From positions 1-64,000 of IMG/VR virus record IMGVR_UViG_3300046804_003510: 64,000 bases of DNA; one strand, 5' to 3'. A program made the translations under genes and the position numbers. Source of the stretch: a virus. Positions 18,601 to 60,097 of this stretch are shown here, piece after piece; position 1 is the stretch's first letter; every line of letters begins with the position of its first letter. Under the pieces are notes generated by a model that was given only the letters and a program-made list of their open reading frames with translations, searched no databases and was not told the origin of the DNA.

Positions 18601-21600
18601 ATTACACATCTTCAGCATTTAGTCCATTTGATTTCACTTCAAGAAGTTTTTCAAGTCAATCAAATAATGCATTTCAAGTTCTTTCTACTAATGAAAATTT
18701 TGTATTTGATTATGATTTCTATCTCCCAAGAACTGACAAATTAACATTATCAAAAGATGGTACATTCAATATAGTTCTTGGAGACCCTGCAGAAATTCCT
18801 TTACAACCATCAATATCTGATGAAGTTTTAGATATTGCTACTATCATAAGTTCTGCATATGTGTATAATGTTGAAGAAGATGTAACAATTATTCTTTCAG
18901 ACCATAGAAGATATACTATGGCTGATTTAAGAGATATTGATAATAGAGTTTCTAATTTGGAATACTATACTACATTATCTTTATTAGAAACATCAACAGA
19001 AAATCTTTTAATTACTGATGCTAATGGATTAAACAGATTTAAATCAGGATTTTTTGTAGATGAATTTAATAATTACAATACTTCAGATACTCAAGAATTT
19101 AATTATAACGCACAAATTGAAAATAGAACTTTAAGTGCAATTAAGCAAGAAGAAAAAATTGACCTTTCTTTATTCTATACTGATGACTACACATCATTTG
19201 CAGACATTAATTTAAACAATACTACTTGCAGCAATTTAAAAATTACTGGGGATAAACTTTCATTAGATTATTCTGAAGTTGTTGCATCAAAACAACCTTT
19301 TGCAAGCAAATTTGTAAATGTAAACCCATTCAATATTATTACTTGGTCTGGAATCTTAGAATTAAATCCAAGGAAAGATAATTGGGTAGTAGAATTAAAT
19401 CCAAGAAGATTGACAAGAAGACAAAGACGTGATTTACGTAGAAGAGGTTGGAGACGCACTCGTACATTTGTTTCAAATCTACCATACATTAGAACTAGAA
19501 ATATTGATTTTACTGGAGCAAGATTAAAACCAAATACAAGATTTAAACTTTTATTTGATAAGAAGGATTTAACTTCTAATACTTTAAATTCTACAGTATT
19601 TCCAAAACTTTTGGAAATCTCTAACAATGTAGGTAAATTTGAAATTGGTGAAACTGTTCAGTGTTTGGATAACAATAAAGTTTCTTGTACTTTTAGAATT
19701 TGTTCTCCAAATCATAAATCAGGACCAATATCAGATCCAACATTAACATACAGTAAAAATCCATACAATCCTTCTGTTGGAATTTCTTCTCAATATGGTA
19801 CTCAATCTACATTCTTAAATATTGATACTTCATCACTTTCCAGAGAAGATATTACTGGATTTTGGGGCAAAATTAAAAAGGGAAATACTATTGTAGGAAC
19901 TACAAGTAAGGCAAATGCTACTGTCTCTGATATTAGATTAGTCACTAATGAAGAAGGACTTTTGATTGGTAGTATCTGGATTGATGAGCAAGATAAATTT
20001 GTAACTGGCCAAACATCAGTAGATTTAGTTGTAAACTCTCCAACAACAAAAGTTCCTGGAGAAGTTGGAGATAGCTCAGCATCAGATACCTTTACTACTA
20101 AAGGAACAGAAATTATTCACATCCCAACAAGATATCTTGATCCATTAGCACAAACTTTCTTGGTAGAAGAAGAAAATGGAATTATTCCAACTTCTGTAGA
20201 TGTATATTTTTACACTAAAGACACTTCCATTCCAATTGAACTTCAAATTAGAGAAGTTTCTTTTGGCACCCCAGGAGGACCAGATAAAATAGTTCCTGGA
20301 TTAAGAAAAGTATTATCTGCTTCTGATGTCAAAGTTAGTTCTAATGCAAGCACCAAAACTACATTTACATTTGATACTTTAACTAGACTTGCTCCAGGAG
20401 AATATGCTGTTGTACTCATTTCGGATTCAAATGAGTACAATGTTTGGATTTCTGAACTTGGATCAGAAGACATTTCAACAGTCAATTTACCAACAGTAAA
20501 TAAAATTTTCATTACTAAACAACCATCTTTAGGAACATTGTTCAAGTCTCAGAATGGTACAACTTGGGTTCCAAGTCCATTAGAAGATTTGAAATTTACT
20601 TTAAACAAAGCAAACTTTGTAACTACTGGTGGAACTGCTAGATTTTATAATTCAACTAATTCAGTAACTTCTCCAGAAAATAAACTTCCAAATAATCCAA
20701 TCACTGCTATTTCAACTTCTGGAGATTATCCAAATGATGGAAGACACATTTTAATATTCCACCCAAATCATGGAATGCATTCATCTAATAATCAAGTTCA
20801 AATTAAAGGAGTTCAATCAGACATTCTTCCAGTAAAATTAACTGCTGGATATGCATCTACAGATAGTGGTGCAATCTCAGTTGCAAGCACAGCAATCTTT
20901 GTAACCTTTGAAGGTTCTAATGTTGATAGTGGAAATCCTGGATATATTCAAATTGGAAATGAAGTTATTCAATACACTGGATTCAATGGTTCAAATCAAC
21001 TTTTAAATATTACAAGAGGAGTATATGGAACTACACAATCTTCTTATAGTGTAGGTGATGATGTCTATAAGTATGAGTTTAACAATGTTTCTTTGAATAG
21101 AATTAACACTCAATTTACAATTGCAAATGATCCTAGCCCAACTTTAGACACATATTATGTTCAGGTAAGTTCTGGTTCATTATTTACTCAAACAAAGACT
21201 GGTGGTGGTGATGATGTTTATGTTTCCAAGAACAAACTATTCCATGAAATTGAATTTAATCCAGATTTAGTTACTCAATTTAATAATACTGAAGTATCAG
21301 CTTCTGTAAGAACAGTTTCTGCTACAAGTGTTGATGGTTCTGAAACTTCTTTTGTAGATAAGGGATTTGAAAGTATTGGTATTACCAGTACAAATGTATT
21401 TGGAACTCCAAGAATGGTAGCATCAAGAATTAATGAAACCACATATTTGAATTCTACAAACTTTGTTGGAAACAGATCTTTCACTTTAGAATTAAACTTG
21501 GATACATCAGATACAAATGTTTCTCCTTTAATCAATTTAACTCAAAATTTTGTAACTGGCTCAACTTATTTCATTAATCAACCAGTTGGACTTTCATCCT

Positions 21601-25545: not shown

Positions 25546-25950
25546 ATGAAGAACAAGTTTTCCAAGATAGAACAATCCTTAGATATAGAGACAACGATTG
25601 TCCCTATATCTAAAGAGATTGTTGAAACTCCTGATGATCCTCAAAAGGATTATGAATATAGTAGAGCACAGTTATATAAATTAGTAGAAAAAGGACACGA
25701 AGCAGTATCTGGAATATTAGAGATTGCTCAAGAGTCAGGTCATCCAAGAGCATTTGAAGTTGCAGGTCAATTAATTAAATCTGTTGGAGATGTTACAGAC
25801 AAATTAATTGATCTTCAAAAGAAAATGAAAGACCTTGAAGCACCTACTAAAAATGGACCAACTACAGTTAATAACTCACTTTTTGTTGGTTCCACAGCAG
25901 AACTTTCAAAACTTATAAAACAAGGTCTGATAAATAGTGCAGAAGAATAA
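25546..25950 (+). CDS. 16: Small terminase subunit gp16
   Basis: A 134-residue protein (T4 gp16 is 164). It has the T4-like small terminase pattern: DYEYSRAQLYKLVEKGHEAV, then GILEIAQESGHPRAFEVAGQLIKSVGDVTDKLIDLQKKMKDL, the central coiled-coil hairpin. It acts in the cytoplasm in DNA recognition and regulates the gp17 motor. In T4, genes 16 and 17 overlap; here three accessory virion genes (25960-28738) separate them. Confidence 0.9.
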   Translation: MKNKFSKIEQSLDIETTIVPISKEIVETPDDPQKDYEYSRAQLYKLVEKGHEAVSGILEIAQESGHPRAFEVAGQLIKSVGDVTDKLIDLQKKMKDLEAPTKNGPTTVNNSLFVGSTAELSKLIKQGLINSAEE

Positions 25951-25959
25951 TCATCTGGA

Positions 25960-27105
25960 ATGAGAGATCCAAAGGGACCTGTAAAACCATACAAATCACC
26001 ACAAGAAATTTCTACACAACATAAAGTTCCTTTAGCAACTGTTATGAAGCAGGTGAAAATGGGAACCAAAGTAGAAGGGGAACATACCACAAGCAAAAGT
26101 GGTGCCAGAATTACTGCATTACAACATGTAGATGAACTTCCAGATTATTATACAAGATTAAAAAAAGTAGAAAAGAAAACTACAAAGGAAGAAATGGAAA
26201 TGCCTCAAATGGTCTCTAATCAACAAAGATATTGTCCAAAGTGCAAGAAATGTGAAACTTCTTCTGAGTGCAAATATGGAGAAAACTATTGGAAGATGTT
26301 TTCAATCCCAATGAACTTAGCACCACAAAAGTTTAGTATTGCAACAGTACATCCAGGAAACATGCCAGAAGAAACTGCTGTTGCACATAAACCTGCAACA
26401 CCTGCAGAAAAGATAAGAATCAAAAAAATGCAAGAACTTGAAAGATTGATGAAAGCAGCAAAAGGACCAAGACATCAATCTGATGTTACAAAAAATGAAG
26501 AGTATGAACTTGATGAAGATCATAAAGAAATTGCTTCAGGAAAGAAGAAAGATGAAGAAGGGTATATGGCAAATATTGAAATGGATAAGATTGAAAAGTC
26601 TGTTGAGATTTTAAGAAAGATTATCAAAAGTCCAAATCAACAACTTCCTGCATGGGTTCAGTCAAAGATTACCAGAGCAGCAGATTTTATTGATACTGCA
26701 GCAGACTATCTTTCCAGTGATGAAGAAGTTTCTGAGGCATGTTGGGTAGGATACAAACAGGTTGGAATGAAGAAAAAAGGAAAGAAAATGGTTCCAAATT
26801 GTGTTCCTGCAAATGAAGATACTTGTTTAACTTTTTCAGAGTTTATGCAGATTGCAGAAGTTGCTGCTTGGCAAAGGAAAGAAGGTAAGAATAGAGAGGG
26901 TGGATTGAATGAGAAGGGAAGAAAATCTTATGAAAGGGAAAATCCTGGAAGTGATTTAAAAGCACCTTCAAAGAAAGTAGGAAATCCTCGTAGAGCATCA
27001 TTTTGTGCACGTATGTCCGGGATGAAGAAAAAACTAACTTCTTCAAAAACTGCTAATGATCCAAATAGCAGAATTAACAAATCTCTTAGAGCTTGGAACT
27101 GTTAA
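25960..27105 (+). CDS. Accessory phage protein, 381 aa, apparent two-part fusion
   Basis: No catalytic motif is recognised. The N-terminal 75 residues (HKVPLATVMKQVKMGTKVEG; HVDELPDYYTRLKKVEKK) resemble a DUF5661-type domain. Residues 92-104 hold a Cys cluster (YCPKCKKCETSSEC) that may bind metal. A central charged helix (MDKIEKSVEILRKIIKS) follows. The C-terminal 90 residues (AWQRKEGKNREGGLNEKGRK; GNPRRASFCARMSGMKKKL) look like a DUF6321-type domain. The join between the halves, FSEFMQIAE at 292-300, resembles the head-targeting N termini of other proteins here. It is probably a virion or internal head protein. The family names are from memory and uncertain. Confidence 0.6.
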   Translation: MRDPKGPVKPYKSPQEISTQHKVPLATVMKQVKMGTKVEGEHTTSKSGARITALQHVDELPDYYTRLKKVEKKTTKEEMEMPQMVSNQQRYCPKCKKCETSSECKYGENYWKMFSIPMNLAPQKFSIATVHPGNMPEETAVAHKPATPAEKIRIKKMQELERLMKAAKGPRHQSDVTKNEEYELDEDHKEIASGKKKDEEGYMANIEMDKIEKSVEILRKIIKSPNQQLPAWVQSKITRAADFIDTAADYLSSDEEVSEACWVGYKQVGMKKKGKKMVPNCVPANEDTCLTFSEFMQIAEVAAWQRKEGKNREGGLNEKGRKSYERENPGSDLKAPSKKVGNPRRASFCARMSGMKKKLTSSKTANDPNSRINKSLRAWNC

Positions 27106-27106
27106 A

Positions 27107-27421
27107 ATGAAAAGTTACAAAGAATTTATTTCAGAAAGCATTAATATTCAGGGGGATTTTAATGGAACCCTAAATATTGGAGCACAACCAACTCCTCAAC
27201 AAGTTGGAGAAGAATTTTCTGTAGATTTTGTTTGGCAAGGAAGTATCTACAGAATTGATATGATTTCTGAGAGTGGAATTCCTTCAAAACAACATCTTAC
27301 AACTCATCTTCAGAATGAATACCCTGGAGCAATTATTCACAACATTTATCCAGGTCTTCAAAAAGTTGAAAACGTAACACAAGTAAAAAGATATCATCCA
27401 GCAAAATTAGAATGGATTTGA
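27107..27421 (+). CDS. Putative internal head protein with capsid-targeting-like N terminus
   Basis: I place the start at ATG 27107, just after the stop of the upstream gene, rather than at an ATG 51 bases earlier. That gives a 104-aa product beginning MKSYKEFISES. This start closely resembles the T4 internal-protein capsid-targeting sequence (MKTYQEFI-type), with a possible gp21 cleavage site after ISE. The rest is a small domain with strands (EEFSVDFVWQGSIYRIDMIS) and a helix (TTHLQNEYPGAII). It lies between gp16 and gp17 among virion genes. Packaging in the head is inferred from the N terminus only. Confidence 0.6.
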   Translation: MKSYKEFISESINIQGDFNGTLNIGAQPTPQQVGEEFSVDFVWQGSIYRIDMISESGIPSKQHLTTHLQNEYPGAIIHNIYPGLQKVENVTQVKRYHPAKLEWI

Positions 27422-27424
27422 TTT

Positions 27425-28738
27425 ATGGCTATTTGGAATATAACTACACAAGATTATTTAAATCAAGAGAGATCTTTATTTGAAGTTTTTGGTGCAGCAA
27501 CAAAAGATGGAAAAATTGTAGATGATTACAATAGATTTCCAGTAAGTGTAAATCCAGATGCTTTTGGTAGAACAAGAGTATCAAATCCACTTACACTATT
27601 TGATTCATCTCACAGATATAGAGACAATAATCTTTGGGAGAGTTTGATTGTAGGGACTGGTTCTACTGTTGGTTTTGTAACAACTCAAGGATTAATTAAT
27701 ATTGGTATTGGAACTACAAGTGGTGATTCGGTTATTAGAGAAACCACCAAAACATTCTCATATCAACCAGGCAAATCTTTGCTTGTATTAAATACTTTTA
27801 TTCCAGCAACACCAAAAACAAACTTAAGACAAAGAGTTGGTTATTTTGGTGCTGATAATGGAATGTATTTTGAAATCAACAATACTACTCCATATTTTGT
27901 GGAAAGAAGTTTATCTACAGGAACTGAAAATGCAGTTGCACAAAATAATTGGAATATTGATAAATTAGATGGAACAGGAATTTCTGGTATCACATTAGAT
28001 ATTAGCAAAGCACAAATTCTTTGGATGGATATTGAGTGGTTAGGTCTTGGGACAGTAAGAATGGGATTTGTAATTAATGGAAAATTTATTCATGCACACT
28101 CATTCCATCACTCAAACTTAATTCAATCAACTTATATTACAACAGCATCTCTTCCTTTGAGATATGAGATTGCTAACACTGGAATTACAACTAGTGCAAG
28201 CACTCTCAAACAAATTTGTTCTAGTGTAATTTCTGAAGGTGGTTATGAATTGAGGGGATTGCAGCAGGCAGCAAATACTCCAATTACATCACCAGTAGAT
28301 TTACCAACTCCTGCTGGAACTTATTATCCTGTCATTTCCATTCGCTTGAAATCTTCTCCAAATAGATTAGATGCAATTGTAATTTTGACTGCTCTTTCAT
28401 TAATGGGCACTGGAAATGGTCCACAATACAATTGGCAGATGAGAGCATCAGCAACTACTAGTGGGGGAACTTGGGTCAGTGCTGGTGTAGATAGTGCTGT
28501 AGAATACAAAATTGATGGAGGAACTGTAAGTGGTGGAAGAATTTTAGCATCTGGTTTCTTCACATCATCAAATCAATCTTCTTCATCAGTTGATATTCTC
28601 AAAGAGGCATTATTTAAGTTTCAGTTGGAACGAAATGGATTGACTGGAACTCCTTATGAATTAACTCTTGTATGTGCATCTGATACTGCTGGTGCCGATG
28701 TTTTTGCATCATTAGATTGGGAAGAGATTAGTAGGTAA
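27425..28738 (+). CDS. Virion structural protein, 437 aa
   Basis: The product begins MAIWNITTQDYLNQERSLFE and has a conserved-looking block (VNPDAFGRTRVSNPLTLFDS; RYRDNNLWESLIVGTG), then beta-rich sequence with RQRVGYFGADNGMYFEI and a GGTVSGGRILASGFF segment near the end. This block resembles phage structural proteins with jelly-roll or fibre-like folds, often annotated only as structural. ATG at 27425 follows 3 bases after the upstream stop, and gp17 follows 5 bases downstream. A decoration or fibre role is a guess. Confidence 0.6.
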   Translation: MAIWNITTQDYLNQERSLFEVFGAATKDGKIVDDYNRFPVSVNPDAFGRTRVSNPLTLFDSSHRYRDNNLWESLIVGTGSTVGFVTTQGLINIGIGTTSGDSVIRETTKTFSYQPGKSLLVLNTFIPATPKTNLRQRVGYFGADNGMYFEINNTTPYFVERSLSTGTENAVAQNNWNIDKLDGTGISGITLDISKAQILWMDIEWLGLGTVRMGFVINGKFIHAHSFHHSNLIQSTYITTASLPLRYEIANTGITTSASTLKQICSSVISEGGYELRGLQQAANTPITSPVDLPTPAGTYYPVISIRLKSSPNRLDAIVILTALSLMGTGNGPQYNWQMRASATTSGGTWVSAGVDSAVEYKIDGGTVSGGRILASGFFTSSNQSSSSVDILKEALFKFQLERNGLTGTPYELTLVCASDTAGADVFASLDWEEISR

Positions 28739-28743
28739 TTTTT

Positions 28744-30402
28744 ATGGCAGGTGACATTTATCTTGGTAATCCTCTTTTAAAAAAAGCAAATACTCCAATT
28801 GAATTTACTGAAGATCAAATCTTAGAATTTATAAAATGTAAAAATGATCCAGTATACTTTGCAAAAAATTATATTAAAATCGTTACTTTGGATCACGGTT
28901 TACAACAGTTTAAACCATATCATTTCCAAGAAAAATTAATTAGCAATTTCCACAATCATAGATTTAACATTTGTAAGATGCCTCGTCAGACAGGTAAATC
29001 TACAACTGTGGTATCTTATCTTTTACACTATGCAATTTTTAATGATAATGTAAATATTGCAATTCTTGCCAACAAAGCTTCTACTGCAAGAGACTTGCTT
29101 CAAAGATTGCAAACTGCTTATGAAAACCTTCCAAAATGGTTACAACAGGGGATCATAGCTTGGAACAGAGGATCTATGGAACTGGAGAATGGTTCCAAGA
29201 TTCTTGCTGCTTCTACATCAGCATCAGCAGTTAGAGGTGGATCCTACAACATCATCTTTTTGGATGAGTTTGCATTCGTTCAAAATCACCTTGCTGACGA
29301 TTTCTTTGCATCTGTATATCCTACCATTTCTTCTGGACAGTCTACAAAGGTTATTATTGTTTCTACCCCTCATGGTATGAATCATTTTTATCGCCTTTGG
29401 CATGATGCAGAAAGGGGTAAGAATGAATATGTTCCCACAGAAGTTCACTGGTCAGAAGTTCCAGGAAGAGATGATAAATGGAAAGCACAGACTATTGCAA
29501 ACACATCTGAGCAGCAGTTTAAGATTGAGTTTGAATGCGAATTCTTAGGGTCAGTTGATACTTTAATTGCACCAAGTAAACTCAAAAGTTTAGTATATGA
29601 TAGTCCAGTTAAAAGAAATAAAGGTTTAGATGTTTATGAAGATGCCAAATCTGATAAAGATTATTTAATTACTGTCGATGTTGCAAGAGGAGTTGGGAGT
29701 GATTACTCTGCATTTGTGGTATTTGATATCACGTCCTTTCCACATAAGATTGTAGCAAAATATAGAAATAATGAAATCAAACCTATGCTTTTTCCTAATA
29801 TCATTTTTGATGTTGCAAAAGCATATAATAGTGCTTTTATTTTATGTGAAGTAAATGATGTTGGAGATCAAGTAGCAGCTATCATTCAATATGATCTTGA
29901 GTATCAAAATCTTCTAATGTGTTCTATGAGAGGTCGTGCAGGTCAAATTGTTGGACAAGGTTTCTCTGGAAAGAAAACTCAACTTGGATTAAAGATGTCC
30001 AAAACAGTTAAAAAAGTTGGGTGCCTTAATCTCAAAACTATGATTGAGGAGGATAAACTTATTTTTAATGATTATGAAATTATTAGTGAACTTACAACAT
30101 TTATTCAAAAACACAATTCATTTGAAGCAGAAGAGGGATGTAATGATGACCTTGCCATGTGTCTGGTCATCTATGCATGGTTAGTAGCACAAGATTATTT
30201 TAAAGAACTGACAGAACAGGATGTCAGGAAAAGATTATATGAAGAACAAAAAAATCAAATTGAACAAGATATGGCTCCTTTTGGATTTATGATGACAGGA
30301 TTGGAGGAAAAAACTGAAGTTGATGTTGATGGAGACGTTTGGCATGTTGATGAATATGGAGATAGGTCTCATGAGTTTTCTTATATGTGGGAGTATAGGT
30401 AA
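28744..30402 (+). CDS. 17: Large terminase subunit gp17 (packaging ATPase/nuclease)
   Basis: A 552-residue protein (T4 gp17 is 610). The ATPase domain shows Walker A RQTGKST (81-87), Walker B NIIFLDEFAF (about 169-178, D174 E175) and motif III VIIVSTPHG (about 203-211). The nuclease domain begins at DYLITVDVARGVGSDYSAFVV, with D312 as the first metal ligand, and later has CNDDLAMCL. It drives ATP-dependent packaging of concatemeric DNA at the portal and cuts headful lengths. The next gene, gp18, has its own late promoter. Confidence 0.96.
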   Translation: MAGDIYLGNPLLKKANTPIEFTEDQILEFIKCKNDPVYFAKNYIKIVTLDHGLQQFKPYHFQEKLISNFHNHRFNICKMPRQTGKSTTVVSYLLHYAIFNDNVNIAILANKASTARDLLQRLQTAYENLPKWLQQGIIAWNRGSMELENGSKILAASTSASAVRGGSYNIIFLDEFAFVQNHLADDFFASVYPTISSGQSTKVIIVSTPHGMNHFYRLWHDAERGKNEYVPTEVHWSEVPGRDDKWKAQTIANTSEQQFKIEFECEFLGSVDTLIAPSKLKSLVYDSPVKRNKGLDVYEDAKSDKDYLITVDVARGVGSDYSAFVVFDITSFPHKIVAKYRNNEIKPMLFPNIIFDVAKAYNSAFILCEVNDVGDQVAAIIQYDLEYQNLLMCSMRGRAGQIVGQGFSGKKTQLGLKMSKTVKKVGCLNLKTMIEEDKLIFNDYEIISELTTFIQKHNSFEAEEGCNDDLAMCLVIYAWLVAQDYFKELTEQDVRKRLYEEQKNQIEQDMAPFGFMMTGLEEKTEVDVDGDVWHVDEYGDRSHEFSYMWEYR

Positions 30403-35413: not shown

Positions 35414-36064
35414 ATGAAACTCATCACAGAAGAGATCGAATCTATCGAAATTATTACTGAAGAATCTGAAGGGAAAAAAACTCTGTATATTACAGGGCCA
35501 TTCCTTCAAGCTGAAGTAACAAATAGAAATGGAAGATGTTATCCATTTTCTATTTTAGAGCGTGAAGTTAAAAGGTATAATGATACCTTTATTAAAAATG
35601 GTCGTGCTCTTGGTGAACTTGGACATCCAGATGGACCTAGTGTAAATTTGGATAGAGTTTCTCATATGATTACATCTCTTCATTCAGAAGGTAATACTTT
35701 TGTAGGTAAAGCAAAAGTACTTGATACTCCAATGGGAAATATTGCTAAATCTCTTCTTGATGAAGGAGTCATGTTAGGGGTTTCTTCAAGAGGAGTTGGT
35801 TCTCTGATTGAAAAAAATGGCGTCAAATATGTCAGTGATGACTTTATGTTAGCAACTGCTGCTGATATTGTTGCAGATCCTTCTGCTCCTGATGCATTTG
35901 TTCAGGGAATTATGGAAGGCAAAGAATGGGTGTGGGAAGGTGGAATCTTAAAAGAAAAAGCAGCAGAAACTGCTAAAAGACAAGTTGAATATTATTCAAG
36001 AAATAGAAAATTAAGTGAACAAAAGAAACTTAAACTTCTTAATGACTATCTCTTAAATCTGTAA
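35414..36064 (+). CDS. 21: Prohead core protease gp21
   Basis: A 216-residue protein (T4 gp21 is 212). It is an S77/U9-type serine protease of the herpesvirus assemblin fold. GELGHPDGP gives the catalytic His (H71) and LGVSSRGVGS the nucleophile region (S124/S125). FLQAEVTNRNGRCYP is typical. It cuts head proteins after (L/I)xE sites, which matters for the FLTE site in gp23 and the targeting sequences discussed here. It is 4 bases after the 88-aa gene. Confidence 0.95.
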   Translation: MKLITEEIESIEIITEESEGKKTLYITGPFLQAEVTNRNGRCYPFSILEREVKRYNDTFIKNGRALGELGHPDGPSVNLDRVSHMITSLHSEGNTFVGKAKVLDTPMGNIAKSLLDEGVMLGVSSRGVGSLIEKNGVKYVSDDFMLATAADIVADPSAPDAFVQGIMEGKEWVWEGGILKEKAAETAKRQVEYYSRNRKLSEQKKLKLLNDYLLNL

Positions 36065-36113: not shown

Positions 36114-37343
36114 ATGAGTGCCGGTAACAACTTACAAGAAATGGAAGTATCTACTAAAAAATCAGTCACCGCTGTAAACAAAGGTGCAAGACCCGCAGAA
36201 GGAATGCCAAAGTTAGCAGCAGGTTCTGTTGCTGGGCAGTCAGGTTCTTGGGAAGATTTAGGTGGTCCTACACCAACTGGAGAGAATCATCCTCTTGGAG
36301 ATTCTAACAAAATCAAAACTCCAGGAGCTACACTTAAGCAAGTTAAGGATGTAGTCACCAAACATGCTAAAGGTGCAGATCCTATGCCAGCTAAAATTGT
36401 TGGTAAACAAGCTAGCTATGGTGAGGATGTTGAATATGATGAGTCTCTGGTAGAAGAAGCAGAGGAAGATGAAGAGGGTGATGAAGAGGGTGATGAAGAA
36501 GAAAGTGGAAAGAAAAAGGGTAAGAAGAAGATGGAAGAAGCTAAGAAGCATAAGAAAGAAAAAGAAGGTGATGAAGAGGATGACGAAGAAGATGATGAGG
36601 AAGATGATGAGGAAGATCAATATGAAGAGTTTAATCTTGACTTTACTGAAGATGTAAATGCTTTAGTTGGTCAAGAGGAACTTTCAGAAGATTTCAAAGG
36701 TAAGGCATCACTTATTTTTGAAACTGCTGTAAGAACCAAGATTGCAGAAATTAAAGAATCACTGGAATCAAAGTACAATAAAGCTTTAGTTGAAGAAGTT
36801 GCTGCAATCAAAGAAGAATTAACTCAAAGAGTTGATTCATATCTTGAGTATGTTGCTGAAGAGTGGATTGATGAAAATGCTCTTCAGATTGAGAATGGTC
36901 TGAAAGGAGAACTTTCAGAATCATTCATGAGTGGCCTCAAGTCACTTTTTGAAGATCATTATGTAGAAATCCCTGAAGATAGATATGATGTATTAGAAAA
37001 TATGGTTATGAGAATAGATGAAATGGAAGAAAAACTCAACGAACAAATCGAAAGAAATGTTCAACTTAATCAAAGACTTAGCGAAGCTGTAAGTGACACT
37101 ATTTTTAATGAAGTTACTGAAGGGTTAGCTTTAACTCAGAAGGAAAAACTTGCAGGTCTTGCTGAAAGTGTTGAGTTTGATAGTGAAGAAAATTATCGTG
37201 AGAAGTTGGAGTCTCTGAAGGAATCATATTTCCCAAGAGTTATTGGTACTTCAAGAGATGAGATGCTGACTGAAGAAGCTGTTGAGGATTTTGGACCTCA
37301 GATGAATGCTTACCTCAGAGCAATTTCCAAATACTCTAAGTGA
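36114..37343 (+). CDS. 22: Prohead core scaffold protein gp22, with acidic insertion
   Basis: A 409-residue protein, against 269 in T4. The helical C-terminal two thirds (NALVGQEELSEDFKGKASLI; AVRTKIAEIKESLESKYNKA; LAGLAESVEFDSEENYREKL) match gp22 scaffolds. Residues 114-172 form a low-complexity block: acidic (EEAEEDEEGDEEGDEEE), basic (KKKGKKKMEEAKKHKKEK), acidic (EEDDEEDDEEDDEED). The DNA here is a run of GATGAAGA-type repeats. In T4 such an acidic stretch is carried by gp67. It forms the core around which gp23 assembles and is then destroyed by gp21. Confidence 0.92.
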   Translation: MSAGNNLQEMEVSTKKSVTAVNKGARPAEGMPKLAAGSVAGQSGSWEDLGGPTPTGENHPLGDSNKIKTPGATLKQVKDVVTKHAKGADPMPAKIVGKQASYGEDVEYDESLVEEAEEDEEGDEEGDEEESGKKKGKKKMEEAKKHKKEKEGDEEDDEEDDEEDDEEDQYEEFNLDFTEDVNALVGQEELSEDFKGKASLIFETAVRTKIAEIKESLESKYNKALVEEVAAIKEELTQRVDSYLEYVAEEWIDENALQIENGLKGELSESFMSGLKSLFEDHYVEIPEDRYDVLENMVMRIDEMEEKLNEQIERNVQLNQRLSEAVSDTIFNEVTEGLALTQKEKLAGLAESVEFDSEENYREKLESLKESYFPRVIGTSRDEMLTEEAVEDFGPQMNAYLRAISKYSK

Positions 37344-37414: not shown

Positions 37415-38881
37415 ATGTTCCTTTCAGAACAATTGCAGAAGAAGTGGGAACCACTCTTAGAGGCAGAAGGTCTTGATAAGATTTCTGACCCTTATAGAAA
37501 AGCTGTTACCGCTGTTCTGCTCGAAAACCAAGAAAGATTTTTAAAAGAGGAAAGAGGTTTCCTGACTGAAACCCCTGGTGGTTCATATGCCAGCTATAAT
37601 GGTGCTGGTGGTGCTGCTGGTTTTGGTGGTGGTTATGGTGCTTCTGGAAACCCAGCTGCAGGTCCTGTAGCAGGTTTTGATCCAGTTCTGATCTCACTGA
37701 TCAGACGCTCCATGCCTAATCTGGTTGCATATGATCTTGCTGGTGTTCAACCAATGAGTGGTCCTACTGGACTCATCTTTGCAATGAGAAGCAGATATGT
37801 AGATCAGCAAGGTAATGAAACCTTCTTCGATGAAGTTGATACTGCATACTCTGGACAAGATAGTGGATATAACACTACTACTGGTGATTACACTGGTGGT
37901 TCAGATGATGGTGCATCTGTAGGTTTTGGTACTACTGGTTTCCAAGGCAAAGGTGCTCTTGCAGCTCAGAAGACTGATTATGGTTTCAACCCTGCAGACC
38001 TGAATGCTTCAGGTGCATCTGGTAGAGAATATAGAGTTGGACAAGGTATGTCCACCTATGATGCAGAAAATCTGGGTGCTGGTGATGGTGATCAGTTCAA
38101 CCAGATGGCATTCAGTATTGAGAAACTCTCAGTTACTGCAAAGTCAAGAGCACTCAAGGCTGAATACACTCTGGAACTTGCTCAAGACCTCAAGGCTATT
38201 CATGGTCTTGATGCTGAAGCAGAACTGGCAAACATTCTGTCTTCAGAAATTCTTGCTGAAATCAACAGAGAAGTCATCAGAACCATCTATAAAGTTGCTG
38301 AGCCTGGTGCTCAAGTCAATGTTGCTAATGCTGGTTACTTTGACCTTGATGTTGATTCAAATGGTAGATGGTCCGTTGAGAAGTTCAAGGGTCTCCTCTT
38401 CCAGATTGAAAGAGATGCAAATGCTATTGCATACAGAACAAGAAGAGGGAAGGGTAATACCATCCTCTGCTCATCTGATGTTGCTTCAGCACTGACCATG
38501 GCAGGTCTCCTGGATTACACCCCTGCTCTCCAGGCAAATCTTAATGTTGATGATACTGGCAATACTTTTGCTGGTGTTCTCAATGGCAAGTTCAAGGTCT
38601 ATATTGACCCATATTCTGCAAACCTTGCTGCAACTCAGTACTATGTTGTAGGTTACAAGGGAACCAATCCTTATGATGCTGGTCTGTTCTACTGCCCATA
38701 TGTACCTCTCCAGATGGTACGTGCTGTTGGTCAGGACACCTTCCAGCCTAAGATTGGCTTCAAGACCAGATATGGTATGGTTGCCAACCCATTTGCAAAT
38801 GGTCTTACCCAAGATCTGGGTGCCATCAAGGCAGGTGCAAACAGATACTACAGAAGAGTTGCTATCAAGAACCTCATGTGA
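37415..38881 (+). CDS. 23: Major capsid protein gp23
   Basis: A 488-residue protein (T4 gp23 is 521). The start MFLSEQLQKKWEPLLEAEGL and the propeptide end at FLTE (E52), then TPGGSYAS, match the gp21 cleavage site of T4 gp23. The body shows PVLISLIRRSMPNLVAYDLA, GVQPMSGPTGLIFAMRSRY and the end FANGLTQDLGAIKAGANRYY. It forms the hexamers of the shell. Codon choice shifts to C-ending and CTG codons compared with the tail genes, as expected for the most expressed gene. It has its own late promoter and terminator. Confidence 0.97.
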   Translation: MFLSEQLQKKWEPLLEAEGLDKISDPYRKAVTAVLLENQERFLKEERGFLTETPGGSYASYNGAGGAAGFGGGYGASGNPAAGPVAGFDPVLISLIRRSMPNLVAYDLAGVQPMSGPTGLIFAMRSRYVDQQGNETFFDEVDTAYSGQDSGYNTTTGDYTGGSDDGASVGFGTTGFQGKGALAAQKTDYGFNPADLNASGASGREYRVGQGMSTYDAENLGAGDGDQFNQMAFSIEKLSVTAKSRALKAEYTLELAQDLKAIHGLDAEAELANILSSEILAEINREVIRTIYKVAEPGAQVNVANAGYFDLDVDSNGRWSVEKFKGLLFQIERDANAIAYRTRRGKGNTILCSSDVASALTMAGLLDYTPALQANLNVDDTGNTFAGVLNGKFKVYIDPYSANLAATQYYVVGYKGTNPYDAGLFYCPYVPLQMVRAVGQDTFQPKIGFKTRYGMVANPFANGLTQDLGAIKAGANRYYRRVAIKNLM

Positions 38882-38949: not shown

Positions 38950-39504
38950 ATGTCTGCAAACTATTTGAGTAATCAACCATCTAATAGAAATCTTTTATCA
39001 CCAGTAGGATTTAAGTTTTCATTAGAGCAAGCACCAAAGGTAGATTTTTTTTCTAACTATTCTGGCATTCCTGCAATCACTTTAGGTTCAGCACTTCAAA
39101 CTCGTTATGGTAAAAATATTGATATTCCTGGAGATAAAATGAACTTTGAAGATTTTCGTCTACGTTTTCTTGTAGATGAAAATATGGAAAACTATATGGA
39201 AATTTGGAGTTGGATGACTGGTTTAGGATTTCCATATAGTTTGGAGCAATATGCAGATTTAAGAGATTCAGAAGATACACCAACTGCTCCAAAATTAGAT
39301 AATAGAGATTTTTATGAAAGGTCTGATGGAACTCTTAGTATATTAAACAGCAATTTTAATGTTCAATCTCAAGTCATTTTTACAGGTTTATATCCAACTT
39401 ATCTTTCTGCATTAGATTTTGATGCAACTTTAGAAGACATTAGATACTTTACTGCAGAAGTCACTTTCAAATATACTTATTATAGAATTATAACTGACCT
39501 ATGA
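38950..39504 (+). CDS. 3: Tail completion protein gp3 (tail tube terminator)
   Basis: A 184-residue protein (T4 gp3 is 176). Segments are SNRNLLSPVGFKFSLEQAPK, VDFFSNYSGIPAITLGSA, FRLRFLVDENMENYMEIWSW and FTAEVTFKYTYYRI. The fold pattern is similar to tail tube protein gp19, as expected for a tube terminator. In cyanomyoviruses the gene after gp23 and before uvsY is annotated gp3; that synteny is the main basis for the name. It overlaps uvsY by 4 bases (ATGA). Confidence 0.65.
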   Translation: MSANYLSNQPSNRNLLSPVGFKFSLEQAPKVDFFSNYSGIPAITLGSALQTRYGKNIDIPGDKMNFEDFRLRFLVDENMENYMEIWSWMTGLGFPYSLEQYADLRDSEDTPTAPKLDNRDFYERSDGTLSILNSNFNVQSQVIFTGLYPTYLSALDFDATLEDIRYFTAEVTFKYTYYRIITDL

Positions 39505-50276: not shown

Positions 50277-51002
50277 ATGAAAACATATAGGGGATTTTTT
50301 AAAGAATCCATATCGTTTCAAGTTCATGAACAATTAAATCCTACCTTTTGGGATGGTGAAATGATTCGTCCAAAAGTGAGATCACAACTTAAAAAAATTG
50401 CTGCTGCTTGGATTGATTATGTTGGAATAGAAAAAGGTTCAGTAGAAGATATTTTGCTTTTGGGTGGAAATGCTGGATATAACTATACAAAATATTCTGA
50501 TTTAGATTTACATGTAGTGATTGACAGAACTAGAACAGAATGTCCAGATTTGATGTCTGATTACTTTAAAGATAAGAAACAACTTTGGACTTTGACGCAT
50601 GATATTAAAATCTATGGACATTCTGTAGAACCATATGTAGAAGAAGCAGGAAAGAAGCGTAGAAAGAATCAAGGAGTATATTCAATTAAGAATAATAAAT
50701 GGTTAGTTTTTCCTGGAAAGTTTACTGGAGAAGTTGATAAGGACTTGATTAAAGAGAAAGTTTCTGATATGATGAGTAAGATTGACAGTGTAATCAAACA
50801 TGCTAACAATCCATCAGTATTAGAAAATCTTCTCAAAAAAATTAGAGATATGAGAAATGCTGGATTGGATAAATCTGGTGAATTTGCTTTTGAGAATCTT
50901 GTATTCAAGGAACTTAGAAACAAAGGTTACATTGATAAACTTGCTGATCACATTATAAAATTACAAGATAAGTCGTTAACTTTGGAAAATTATGTCTGTT
51001 AA
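50277..51002 (+). CDS. Pol-beta-type nucleotidyltransferase with capsid-targeting-like N terminus
   Basis: A 241-residue protein. The start MKTYRGFFKES is close to the T4 internal-protein targeting sequence. Residues 58-80 hold the nucleotidyltransferase core: ILLLGGNAGYNYTKYSDLDLHV, giving hGG and DLD (D75, D77), then HDIKIYGHSVEPYVEE as a candidate third acidic strand (E118). The C-terminal 90 residues are helical. The reaction would be transfer of a nucleotide to protein, RNA or a small molecule. A perfect late promoter and a terminator isolate it from the early genes around it. Head packaging and injection is inferred, not shown. Confidence 0.75.
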   Translation: MKTYRGFFKESISFQVHEQLNPTFWDGEMIRPKVRSQLKKIAAAWIDYVGIEKGSVEDILLLGGNAGYNYTKYSDLDLHVVIDRTRTECPDLMSDYFKDKKQLWTLTHDIKIYGHSVEPYVEEAGKKRRKNQGVYSIKNNKWLVFPGKFTGEVDKDLIKEKVSDMMSKIDSVIKHANNPSVLENLLKKIRDMRNAGLDKSGEFAFENLVFKELRNKGYIDKLADHIIKLQDKSLTLENYVC

Positions 51003-58608: not shown

Positions 58609-58832
58609 TGGAAGATTTTTTTAAAGAACTTGTGATACTTTATAAGAAACGCATTCGCATTAGGCAACTGAAAAAACAAACTATTGAAAATTTTTGCAGG
58701 TTTTATGTAAGTTTTGTAGACCAATATAAAGACCCTAAAGATAAGAAAGATAAATATTTACAAGTAAAAAAACTTGGATTGCAATATATTCGTAGCAACC
58801 AAGATTTGATATATTCAGAAATCAATAGATGA
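58608..58832 (+). CDS. Small basic helical protein, 74 aa
   Basis: ATG at 58608 shares a base with the methyltransferase stop (TGATG). MEDFFKELVILYKKRIRIRQ is followed by LKKQTIENFCRFYVSFVDQY and a lysine-rich KDPKDKKDKYLQVKKLG. It is all helical and basic. Function unknown. It overlaps the next gene by 4 bases. Confidence 0.6.
   Translation: MEDFFKELVILYKKRIRIRQLKKQTIENFCRFYVSFVDQYKDPKDKKDKYLQVKKLGLQYIRSNQDLIYSEINR
58749..58756 (+). promoter_or_regulatory. Possible late promoter box inside the 74-aa gene
   Basis: GATAAATA within coding sequence, 72 bases before the nucleotidyltransferase start at 58829. It is a plausible late start for that gene, but chance is likely in AT-rich DNA. Confidence 0.25.
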
Positions 58833-60097
58833 AAAGATTTTCAGAATTTATTTTAGAAGCAAGAACATCCCAAGCAGCACAGAAAGCACATAAGCTTGGG
58901 TTAGTTGGTGATGGGCATGGATATTGGATTGACAAACAGAAACAGAGAGTAGCAAGAACATTTAAAGGTCAACTTGAATTTATAAGTGGGAAGAAGAAAA
59001 AAGGTGGTGAGGAAGAAGAACAAAAGAAACAAAAACCTGCTGATGTAAAACAAGGTAGAGCAAAGAAACAAAAACCAGCACCAAAGAGATTAGGAACCAA
59101 ACCACAACAACCAACAGCACAGAGAACTAAGGCACTTGCAACAACTGGGGCAACAGGAAAACCTCCAGCAGGAGCAGCACCTAAAAAAGATTCAAGAGGT
59201 GAAGTTGCCACTGTAGTGTTTGGTAAGTTTAATCCACCAACAGTTTCACATCAAAAAGCATTCAGCACTGCAAAACAAACTGCAACTGAAGGAAACTTTT
59301 ACATCTTCCCAAGTAGGTCTCAGGATGGAAAACAGAATCCATTAGACCCAGATTTAAAGATTTCTTATATGAAGGAAATGTTTCCTGAGTATGCAGAAAA
59401 TATTATTGATAGTGATGAATTTGTTACTATCTTTGATGTTCTTACATTCTTAAATCAAGAAGGATATACTGGAGTCAATATTGTTTGTGGTGCAGAAAGA
59501 GTATCTGAAATTGATAATCTTGCAAACAAAAACAACGGTCAGTTGTATGATTATACAAGTATGAATGTAATTTCTGCTGGACCAAAAGATGCAGATGTTG
59601 CTTCTGATGCAGCAAGAAAGGCAGTGGCAGAAAATGATTTTGAGTCGTTCAAAAAAATGCTTCCAAAAAATTTCAAAAAATCAAAGCAGTTGTTTGCAGA
59701 TTTGCAGCAATCTATGAATGTGAAAGAAGGATATAATCTTTGGGAGATTGCTCCAGAGTATGATTGGAAGGGACTAAGAGAAAATTATATCTTTGGTCAT
59801 CTTTTTAGAGTTGGGTCTAAAGTAGAAAGTACTCATACAGGACTTAGAGGAGAAGTAATTCGTTCTGGTGCCAATCATCTAATATGTGTGACTGAAGATG
59901 GGATTATGTTTAAGTCTTGGATTAAAGATGTTTGTGAATATACAGAAGTAAAAATGGATAAGATTATGAGAGATAAAATACATCCTAATACATTAGTTGG
60001 AACCTCTGGATATACAAAATACGTAGCATCTATGACCCCAGGAGCAACAGTGGATTCTATAAATAAAATAAGGAAAACCGTAAGTAAAGTTAAATGA
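58829..60097 (+). CDS. HIGH-type nucleotidyltransferase with capsid-targeting-like N terminus
   Basis: A 422-residue multidomain protein. Residues 1-12 (MKRFSEFILEAR) look like a T4 head-targeting sequence, with a possible gp21 cut after ILE. Residues 20-55 form a small module (HKLGLVGDGHGYWIDK). Residues 56-120 are a Lys/Gln/Pro/Ala-rich linker. Residues 125-285 are an adenylyl/cytidylyltransferase domain: VVFGKFNPPTVSHQKAF (HxGH-like, H141) and a late DVASDAARKAVAENDFESFK block in the place of the ISxTxxR motif. Residues 320-372 look like an SH3-type module (HLFRVGSKVESTHTGLRGEV). Similar phage genes are labelled cytitidyltransferase or NMN adenylyltransferase. The substrate is unknown. Confidence 0.75.
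   Translation: MKRFSEFILEARTSQAAQKAHKLGLVGDGHGYWIDKQKQRVARTFKGQLEFISGKKKKGGEEEEQKKQKPADVKQGRAKKQKPAPKRLGTKPQQPTAQRTKALATTGATGKPPAGAAPKKDSRGEVATVVFGKFNPPTVSHQKAFSTAKQTATEGNFYIFPSRSQDGKQNPLDPDLKISYMKEMFPEYAENIIDSDEFVTIFDVLTFLNQEGYTGVNIVCGAERVSEIDNLANKNNGQLYDYTSMNVISAGPKDADVASDAARKAVAENDFESFKKMLPKNFKKSKQLFADLQQSMNVKEGYNLWEIAPEYDWKGLRENYIFGHLFRVGSKVESTHTGLRGEVIRSGANHLICVTEDGIMFKSWIKDVCEYTEVKMDKIMRDKIHPNTLVGTSGYTKYVASMTPGATVDSINKIRKTVSKVK
60058..60065 (+). promoter_or_regulatory. Late promoter box for the 313-aa gene
   Basis: A perfect TATAAATA within the 3' end of the preceding gene, 28 bases before ATG 60094. Confidence 0.5.

Follow-up and report, generated by a model that had tools for sequence, protein, structure and literature searches.

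What role does a protein of 104 residues play in a T4-like cyanophage when it is encoded among the head genes and begins with a leader of the type that directs proteins into the T4 capsid? The stretch of DNA analysed here (the window, 64,000 nt) comes from a 69.5-kb virus record whose closest annotated relatives are Synechococcus myoviruses, the best-covered of which share ~73-78% DNA identity with it in head genes. An earlier note on this DNA had placed the gene between gp16 (25546-25950) and gp17 (28744-30402), which is correct but incomplete, as the immediate neighbours are a 381-aa DUF6321 gene upstream and a 437-aa gene downstream (Table 1). The ATG of the 104-aa gene lies one base past the TAA (27103-27105) of the DUF6321 gene. 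An alternative start in the list of open reading frames (ATG 27056, giving 121 aa) was rejected: the residues preceding MK are unrelated among homologs, so that 27107 is the start of the gene. In nearly all comparisons, and over nearly all of the gene, synonymous changes outpace non-synonymous ones (purifying selection), and the product is therefore a real, selected protein. It matches PHROG_1742 over its full length (E 8.9e-35; residues 1-98 against profile positions 1-98 of 108), a family for which PHROG lists no function. The gene is missing from many relatives, in which the DUF6321 gene runs directly into terL, and the slot after DUF6321 is also filled by other leader-bearing bodies, e.g. 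S-PRM1 gp011. In other viral contigs (L278, L217, L240, L268), leader-bearing proteins of ~150 aa (MKSFKQFLSEQPTN... type) lie upstream of DUF6321 genes.

Table 1. Features of the locus and of the related head and leader genes in the window (aa, amino acids)
Feature	Coordinates	Strand	Basis
381-aa protein, DUF5661 and C-terminal DUF6321	25960..27105	+	Pfam; stop one base before the 104-aa start
Leader-like motif LTFSEFMQIAE within the 381-aa protein, just ahead of its DUF6321 module (motif with glutamate site, 26827-26862)	26827..26859	+	sequence
81-aa basic DUF6321 product, pI 10.7, if cut after IAE	26860..27102	+	release inferred
104-aa protein, PHROG_1742	27107..27421	+	ORF of 104 codons and a stop; start codon at 27107
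Capsid-targeting leader of T4 type, MKSYKEFISE (residues 8-10: I-x-E site)	27107..27136	+	pattern search, orthologs, T4 mutant data (PMC9026906)
Residues 11-32: short conserved beta-like segment (SINIQGDFNGTLNIG) and variable-length linker	27137..27202	+	alignment, low-confidence model
Residues 34-104: acidic folded beta-beta-alpha-beta module	27206..27418	+	predicted structure, good confidence
Next gene: virion structural protein of 437 aa (phrog_1645)	27425..28738	+	profile match
gp21-type prohead protease (Peptidase_S77)	35414..36064	+	domain match
gp22-type head scaffolding protein, presumed leader receptor	36114..37343	+	profile match
LTE site at residues 50-52 in the N-terminal part of gp23, the major capsid protein (37415-38881)	37562..37570	+	LxE site
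Leader MKTYRGFFKE of 241-aa protein phrog_36119 (gene 50277-51002)	50277..50306	+	pattern match
Leader MKRFSEFILE of 422-aa cytidylyl/NMN-adenylyltransferase-like protein (gene 58829-60097)	58829..58858	+	pattern match

The leader is identical to that of T4 IPII/IPIII (MKTYQEFIAE) at 7 of 10 positions, against 6 of 10 for each of the contig's two other leaders (at 50277 and 58829). The earlier note's reading of the leader thus holds: three proteins carry the same type, as the pattern search of the contig finds, this one is nearest to T4, its ISE site is confirmed, and a mature part cut after E10 would comprise 94 residues (10.6 kDa), the size that had been predicted for the mature part. From composition, the chance of the motif at a given start is ~6e-6, i.e. 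~0.0009 expected occurrences in 150 genes compared with the 3 seen. Likewise, the strict DNA pattern MKx[FY]xxF[FLIMV]xE has 33 matches in 17 phage genomes and its reversed form, used as control, none; a chance motif is rejected on both counts. A looser pattern yields more noise. In T4 itself the strict pattern matches three genes: ipII, ipIII and the uncharacterised gp61.1 (L120, T4 18966-19130), a 54-aa protein with the capsid-targeting-like start MKTFKEFIKE. In KVP40 (L097), a 215-aa phrog_14016 protein at 39187 starts with MKQFCNFLAE and has a methyltransferase-like stretch by eye, with no Pfam match.

Conservation of the leader was assessed with a query made from the body only, which found 80 loci and 54 distinct proteins, all 54 of them with the leader. 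Absence from orthologs, which the earlier note had named as grounds for abandoning its reading, was seen in a single case elsewhere: in the L256 ortholog, from a survey of genes after DUF6321, the aromatic part of the leader is lost (MKKDLSEN) and the body kept. The 69 sequences with a leader never differ at positions 1, 2, 7 and 10 (K2, F7, E10); they have F or Y at position 4 and L, I or M at position 8, and vary at positions 3, 5, 6 and 9; since this set was picked by the leader itself, its counts are biased and the body-only search gives the unbiased figure. In T4 IPIII, amber-suppression mutants assign targeting to residues 4 and 7 and processing to residues 8 and 10 (PMC9026906). The conserved positions are those that act in T4 IPIII, and the pattern of constraint therefore fits the known mechanism. 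By its sequence, then, MKSYKEFISE is a leader of the T4 capsid-targeting type, and both a gp21 protease and a gp22 core protein are encoded in the same contig.

Virion proteomes of related phages allow the leader to be compared with actual presence in particles. The sole strict-pattern match in S-SM1 is the T4-GC190 cytidyltransferase, which was found in purified virions (PMC3037559). S-SCSM1 has two matches, namely the NMNAT ORF91, detected in virions (PMC9602691), and ORF30 (SSCSM1_30), the ortholog of the 104-aa protein. In S-SZBM1, the cytidylyltransferase S-SZBM1_140, whose leader is shortened (MRFRQFIIE), is among the virion proteins identified by mass spectrometry (PMC9146016). The leader-bearing enzyme is thus detected in 3 of 3 phages, which supports the leader as a packaging tag, for one cargo family. 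By contrast, the 104-aa family is detected in 0 of 2: SSCSM1_30 carries no virion flag in the S-SCSM1 proteome (PMC9602691), and the ortholog SSZBM1_191 is not in the list of 30 S-SZBM1 virion proteins (PMC9146016), nor is SSZBM1_192, a leader-bearing stand-alone DUF6321 protein. Trypsin would yield peptides of suitable length from SSCSM1_30 as well as from SSZBM1_191, although the non-detection of the family, which is not proof of absence, carries less weight for a protein that is small and gives few peptides. An internal protein present, as in T4, in several hundred copies should have been seen, and hence the 104-aa protein, if packaged, is probably scarce; low abundance or loss before maturation are both possible. 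The cytidylyl/NMN-adenylyltransferase leader is widespread among cyanophage homologs and may explain their repeated detection in virions. The contig's third leader-bearing protein, of 241 aa, has a nucleotidyltransferase-like GG...SDLDLHVVID stretch, and homologs in two other genomes (G003, G004) keep its leader.

Behind the leader, residues 11-32 contain the conserved I14, G16 and G20, and the module that follows is related to its upstream neighbour. Residues 34-87 align with a module inside DUF6321 proteins (hhalign probability 97.9, E 3.3e-13), hmmsearch with the body module finds DUF6321 proteins with E down to 1e-9, and the structure search matches DUF6321 proteins and S-SCSM1 ORF29 (E 2e-4), which is labelled a virion protein in the S-SCSM1 record. 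The module occurs inside many DUF6321 mosaic proteins, also in contigs with the separate gene, which may itself be a DUF6321 module that gained a leader. The leader and the DUF6321-module homology, both established by sequence comparison, are new additions to PHROG_1742. Searches for a more distant relationship gave little: two models of the protein had no significant match in a PDB fold search, and a profile search of PDB sequences returned designed proteins only. Pfam GerPC (E 0.054) fails its cut-off, and a similarity to rIIA (tblastn E about 0.1 to 1 in Felixounavirus; phrog_24904, E 0.11) was unconfirmed by the body-only search and is taken as chance.

Comparison with T4 internal proteins, to which the earlier note had likened the mature part in size, has to separate leader from body. 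With IPII/IPIII the protein shares the ten-residue N-terminal leader, in which positions 4 and 7 are aromatic and residues 8-10 form I-x-E, a small size, and a T4-like phage with gp21 and gp22. Similarity ends with the leader, however (the PHROG internal head protein phrog_2667 matches residues 1-18 only, E 0.23). The mature part is acidic, with a pI of about 5.7 (family median 5.0), compared with about 9.6 for the basic IPII/IPIII; the gene occupies a fixed slot in the late structural region; its module is common to a neighbouring virion protein; and its orthologs are so far undetected in the S-SCSM1 and S-SZBM1 virions. The likeness to IPI* lies in a mature protein of small size that follows a capsid targeting leader, whereas the body proved unrelated in the searches made here and has no link to restriction. 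The virion cytidylyltransferase/NMNAT enzymes (T4-GC190, S-SCSM1 ORF91) share leader type and phages, but they measure ~400 aa, and mass spectrometry has detected them in virions, unlike the 104-aa protein.

We consider it likely that the 104-aa protein is cargo bound for the head of this cyanophage, targeted by its leader, trimmed by gp21 and present as a low-copy partner in the core. It would be translated directly after the DUF6321 protein, probably coupled to it. As a short helix, the first ten residues would bind the prohead's gp22 scaffold core through the aromatics Y4 and F7; gp21 would then cut after E10 (I8-x-E10) and free the acidic mature protein in the head. The protein is thus probably packed into the particle and trimmed there; for the S-SZBM1 ortholog, a cut after the leader would give SVNISGDFNGNLYINSAEQQQVDEK without SFLSE. 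The beta-beta-alpha-beta module would most likely serve as a protein-binding partner in the packaged core, in low copy, and the mature protein would be neither a DNA-binding nor a restriction-inhibiting internal protein of T4 type. Docking, cleavage, persistence in the finished head and ejection, like the role given to the body, are steps that we infer.

The same leader could also bring the protein into the prohead core as a transient assembly factor that, as with T4 gp68, is broken down or departs when the head matures. Its absence from two virion lists that include its neighbours and another leader-bearing protein would agree with such a fate, as would the module common to a neighbouring head-region protein, and an extra ISE site at residues 53-55 could permit a second cut; yet this site is unconserved in the family, and the gene is dispensable in many relatives, which is unusual for an assembly factor, so that we regard this explanation as unlikely. 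Less probable still is an effector for anti-defence or host takeover, ejected with the DNA and binding a host enzyme by analogy with IPI*, as the earlier note had proposed in the form of restriction inhibition. A leader like that of IPII/IPIII and the accessory distribution of the gene are compatible with it, and the small fold weakly resembles T7 Gp2, RNA polymerase epsilon/YkzG and T4-type Dmd (Z no higher than about 5). These matches, however, stay at the level of common arrangements, and Gp2, YkzG, Dmd and phi29 p6 were rejected as clues to function because they tie with many unrelated folds. Moreover, PADLOC and Pfam give no match for the protein, the body duplicates a module found in a neighbouring virion protein and is, across the family, strongly conserved instead of hypervariable. 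Nothing beyond the leader speaks for inhibition of restriction, to which we found no sequence link. To our knowledge, no target enzyme of the IPI* type is known in cyanobacterial hosts.

Finally, the leader might be an uncut N-terminal helix that binds another partner in the infected cell, e.g. the DUF6321 protein, and no targeting signal at all. Cleavage of cyanophage leaders is so far a prediction, and the L256 ortholog retains its body without the aromatic pair. Against this stand the near-identical leaders on unrelated bodies, including virion enzymes detected by mass spectrometry and T4 internal proteins, as well as the invariant E10 and the restricted position 8, and we hold an uncut helix to be very improbable.

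The upstream neighbour may also supply head cargo. The leader-like motif inside the 381-aa protein recurs in many relatives and suggests a polyprotein cut by the prohead protease. An aromatic FxxF-type motif, with differing flanks, precedes the module in 29 of 105 distinct DUF6321 sequences; a glutamate lies within 5 residues before it in 103 of the 105, and I, L, V or M stands two residues earlier in 70. The charge of the 81-residue peptide, if gp21 releases it, would be nearer to that of T4 internal proteins than the charge of the 104-aa protein. A literature search on DUF6321 returned nothing direct. More tentatively, cyanophages and their relatives could possess a general capsid-loading code, in which an N-terminal or internal [FY]xxF[ILM]xE tag and prohead-protease cleavage serve a mixed cargo of NAD-related enzymes, nucleotidyltransferase-like proteins, the acidic module and the basic DUF6321 peptide; we see this as possible rather than probable.

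Two cyanophage proteome papers leave undecided whether the NMNAT-like/cytidylyl enzymes in virions are packaged or contaminants (PMC9602691, PMC10665884), and a T4-type leader on these enzymes would provide a packaging mechanism. A literature search found no paper tying capsid targeting sequences to cyanophages, except for one review that mentions both. The leader could thus become a simple genome-wide predictor of proteins that are packaged, and perhaps injected, by one of the most abundant groups of marine phages. The freshwater cyanophage DSL-LC02 (L087) encodes four leader-bearing proteins (at 75987, 118592, 127660 and 155314), the most per genome among those tested with the strict pattern.
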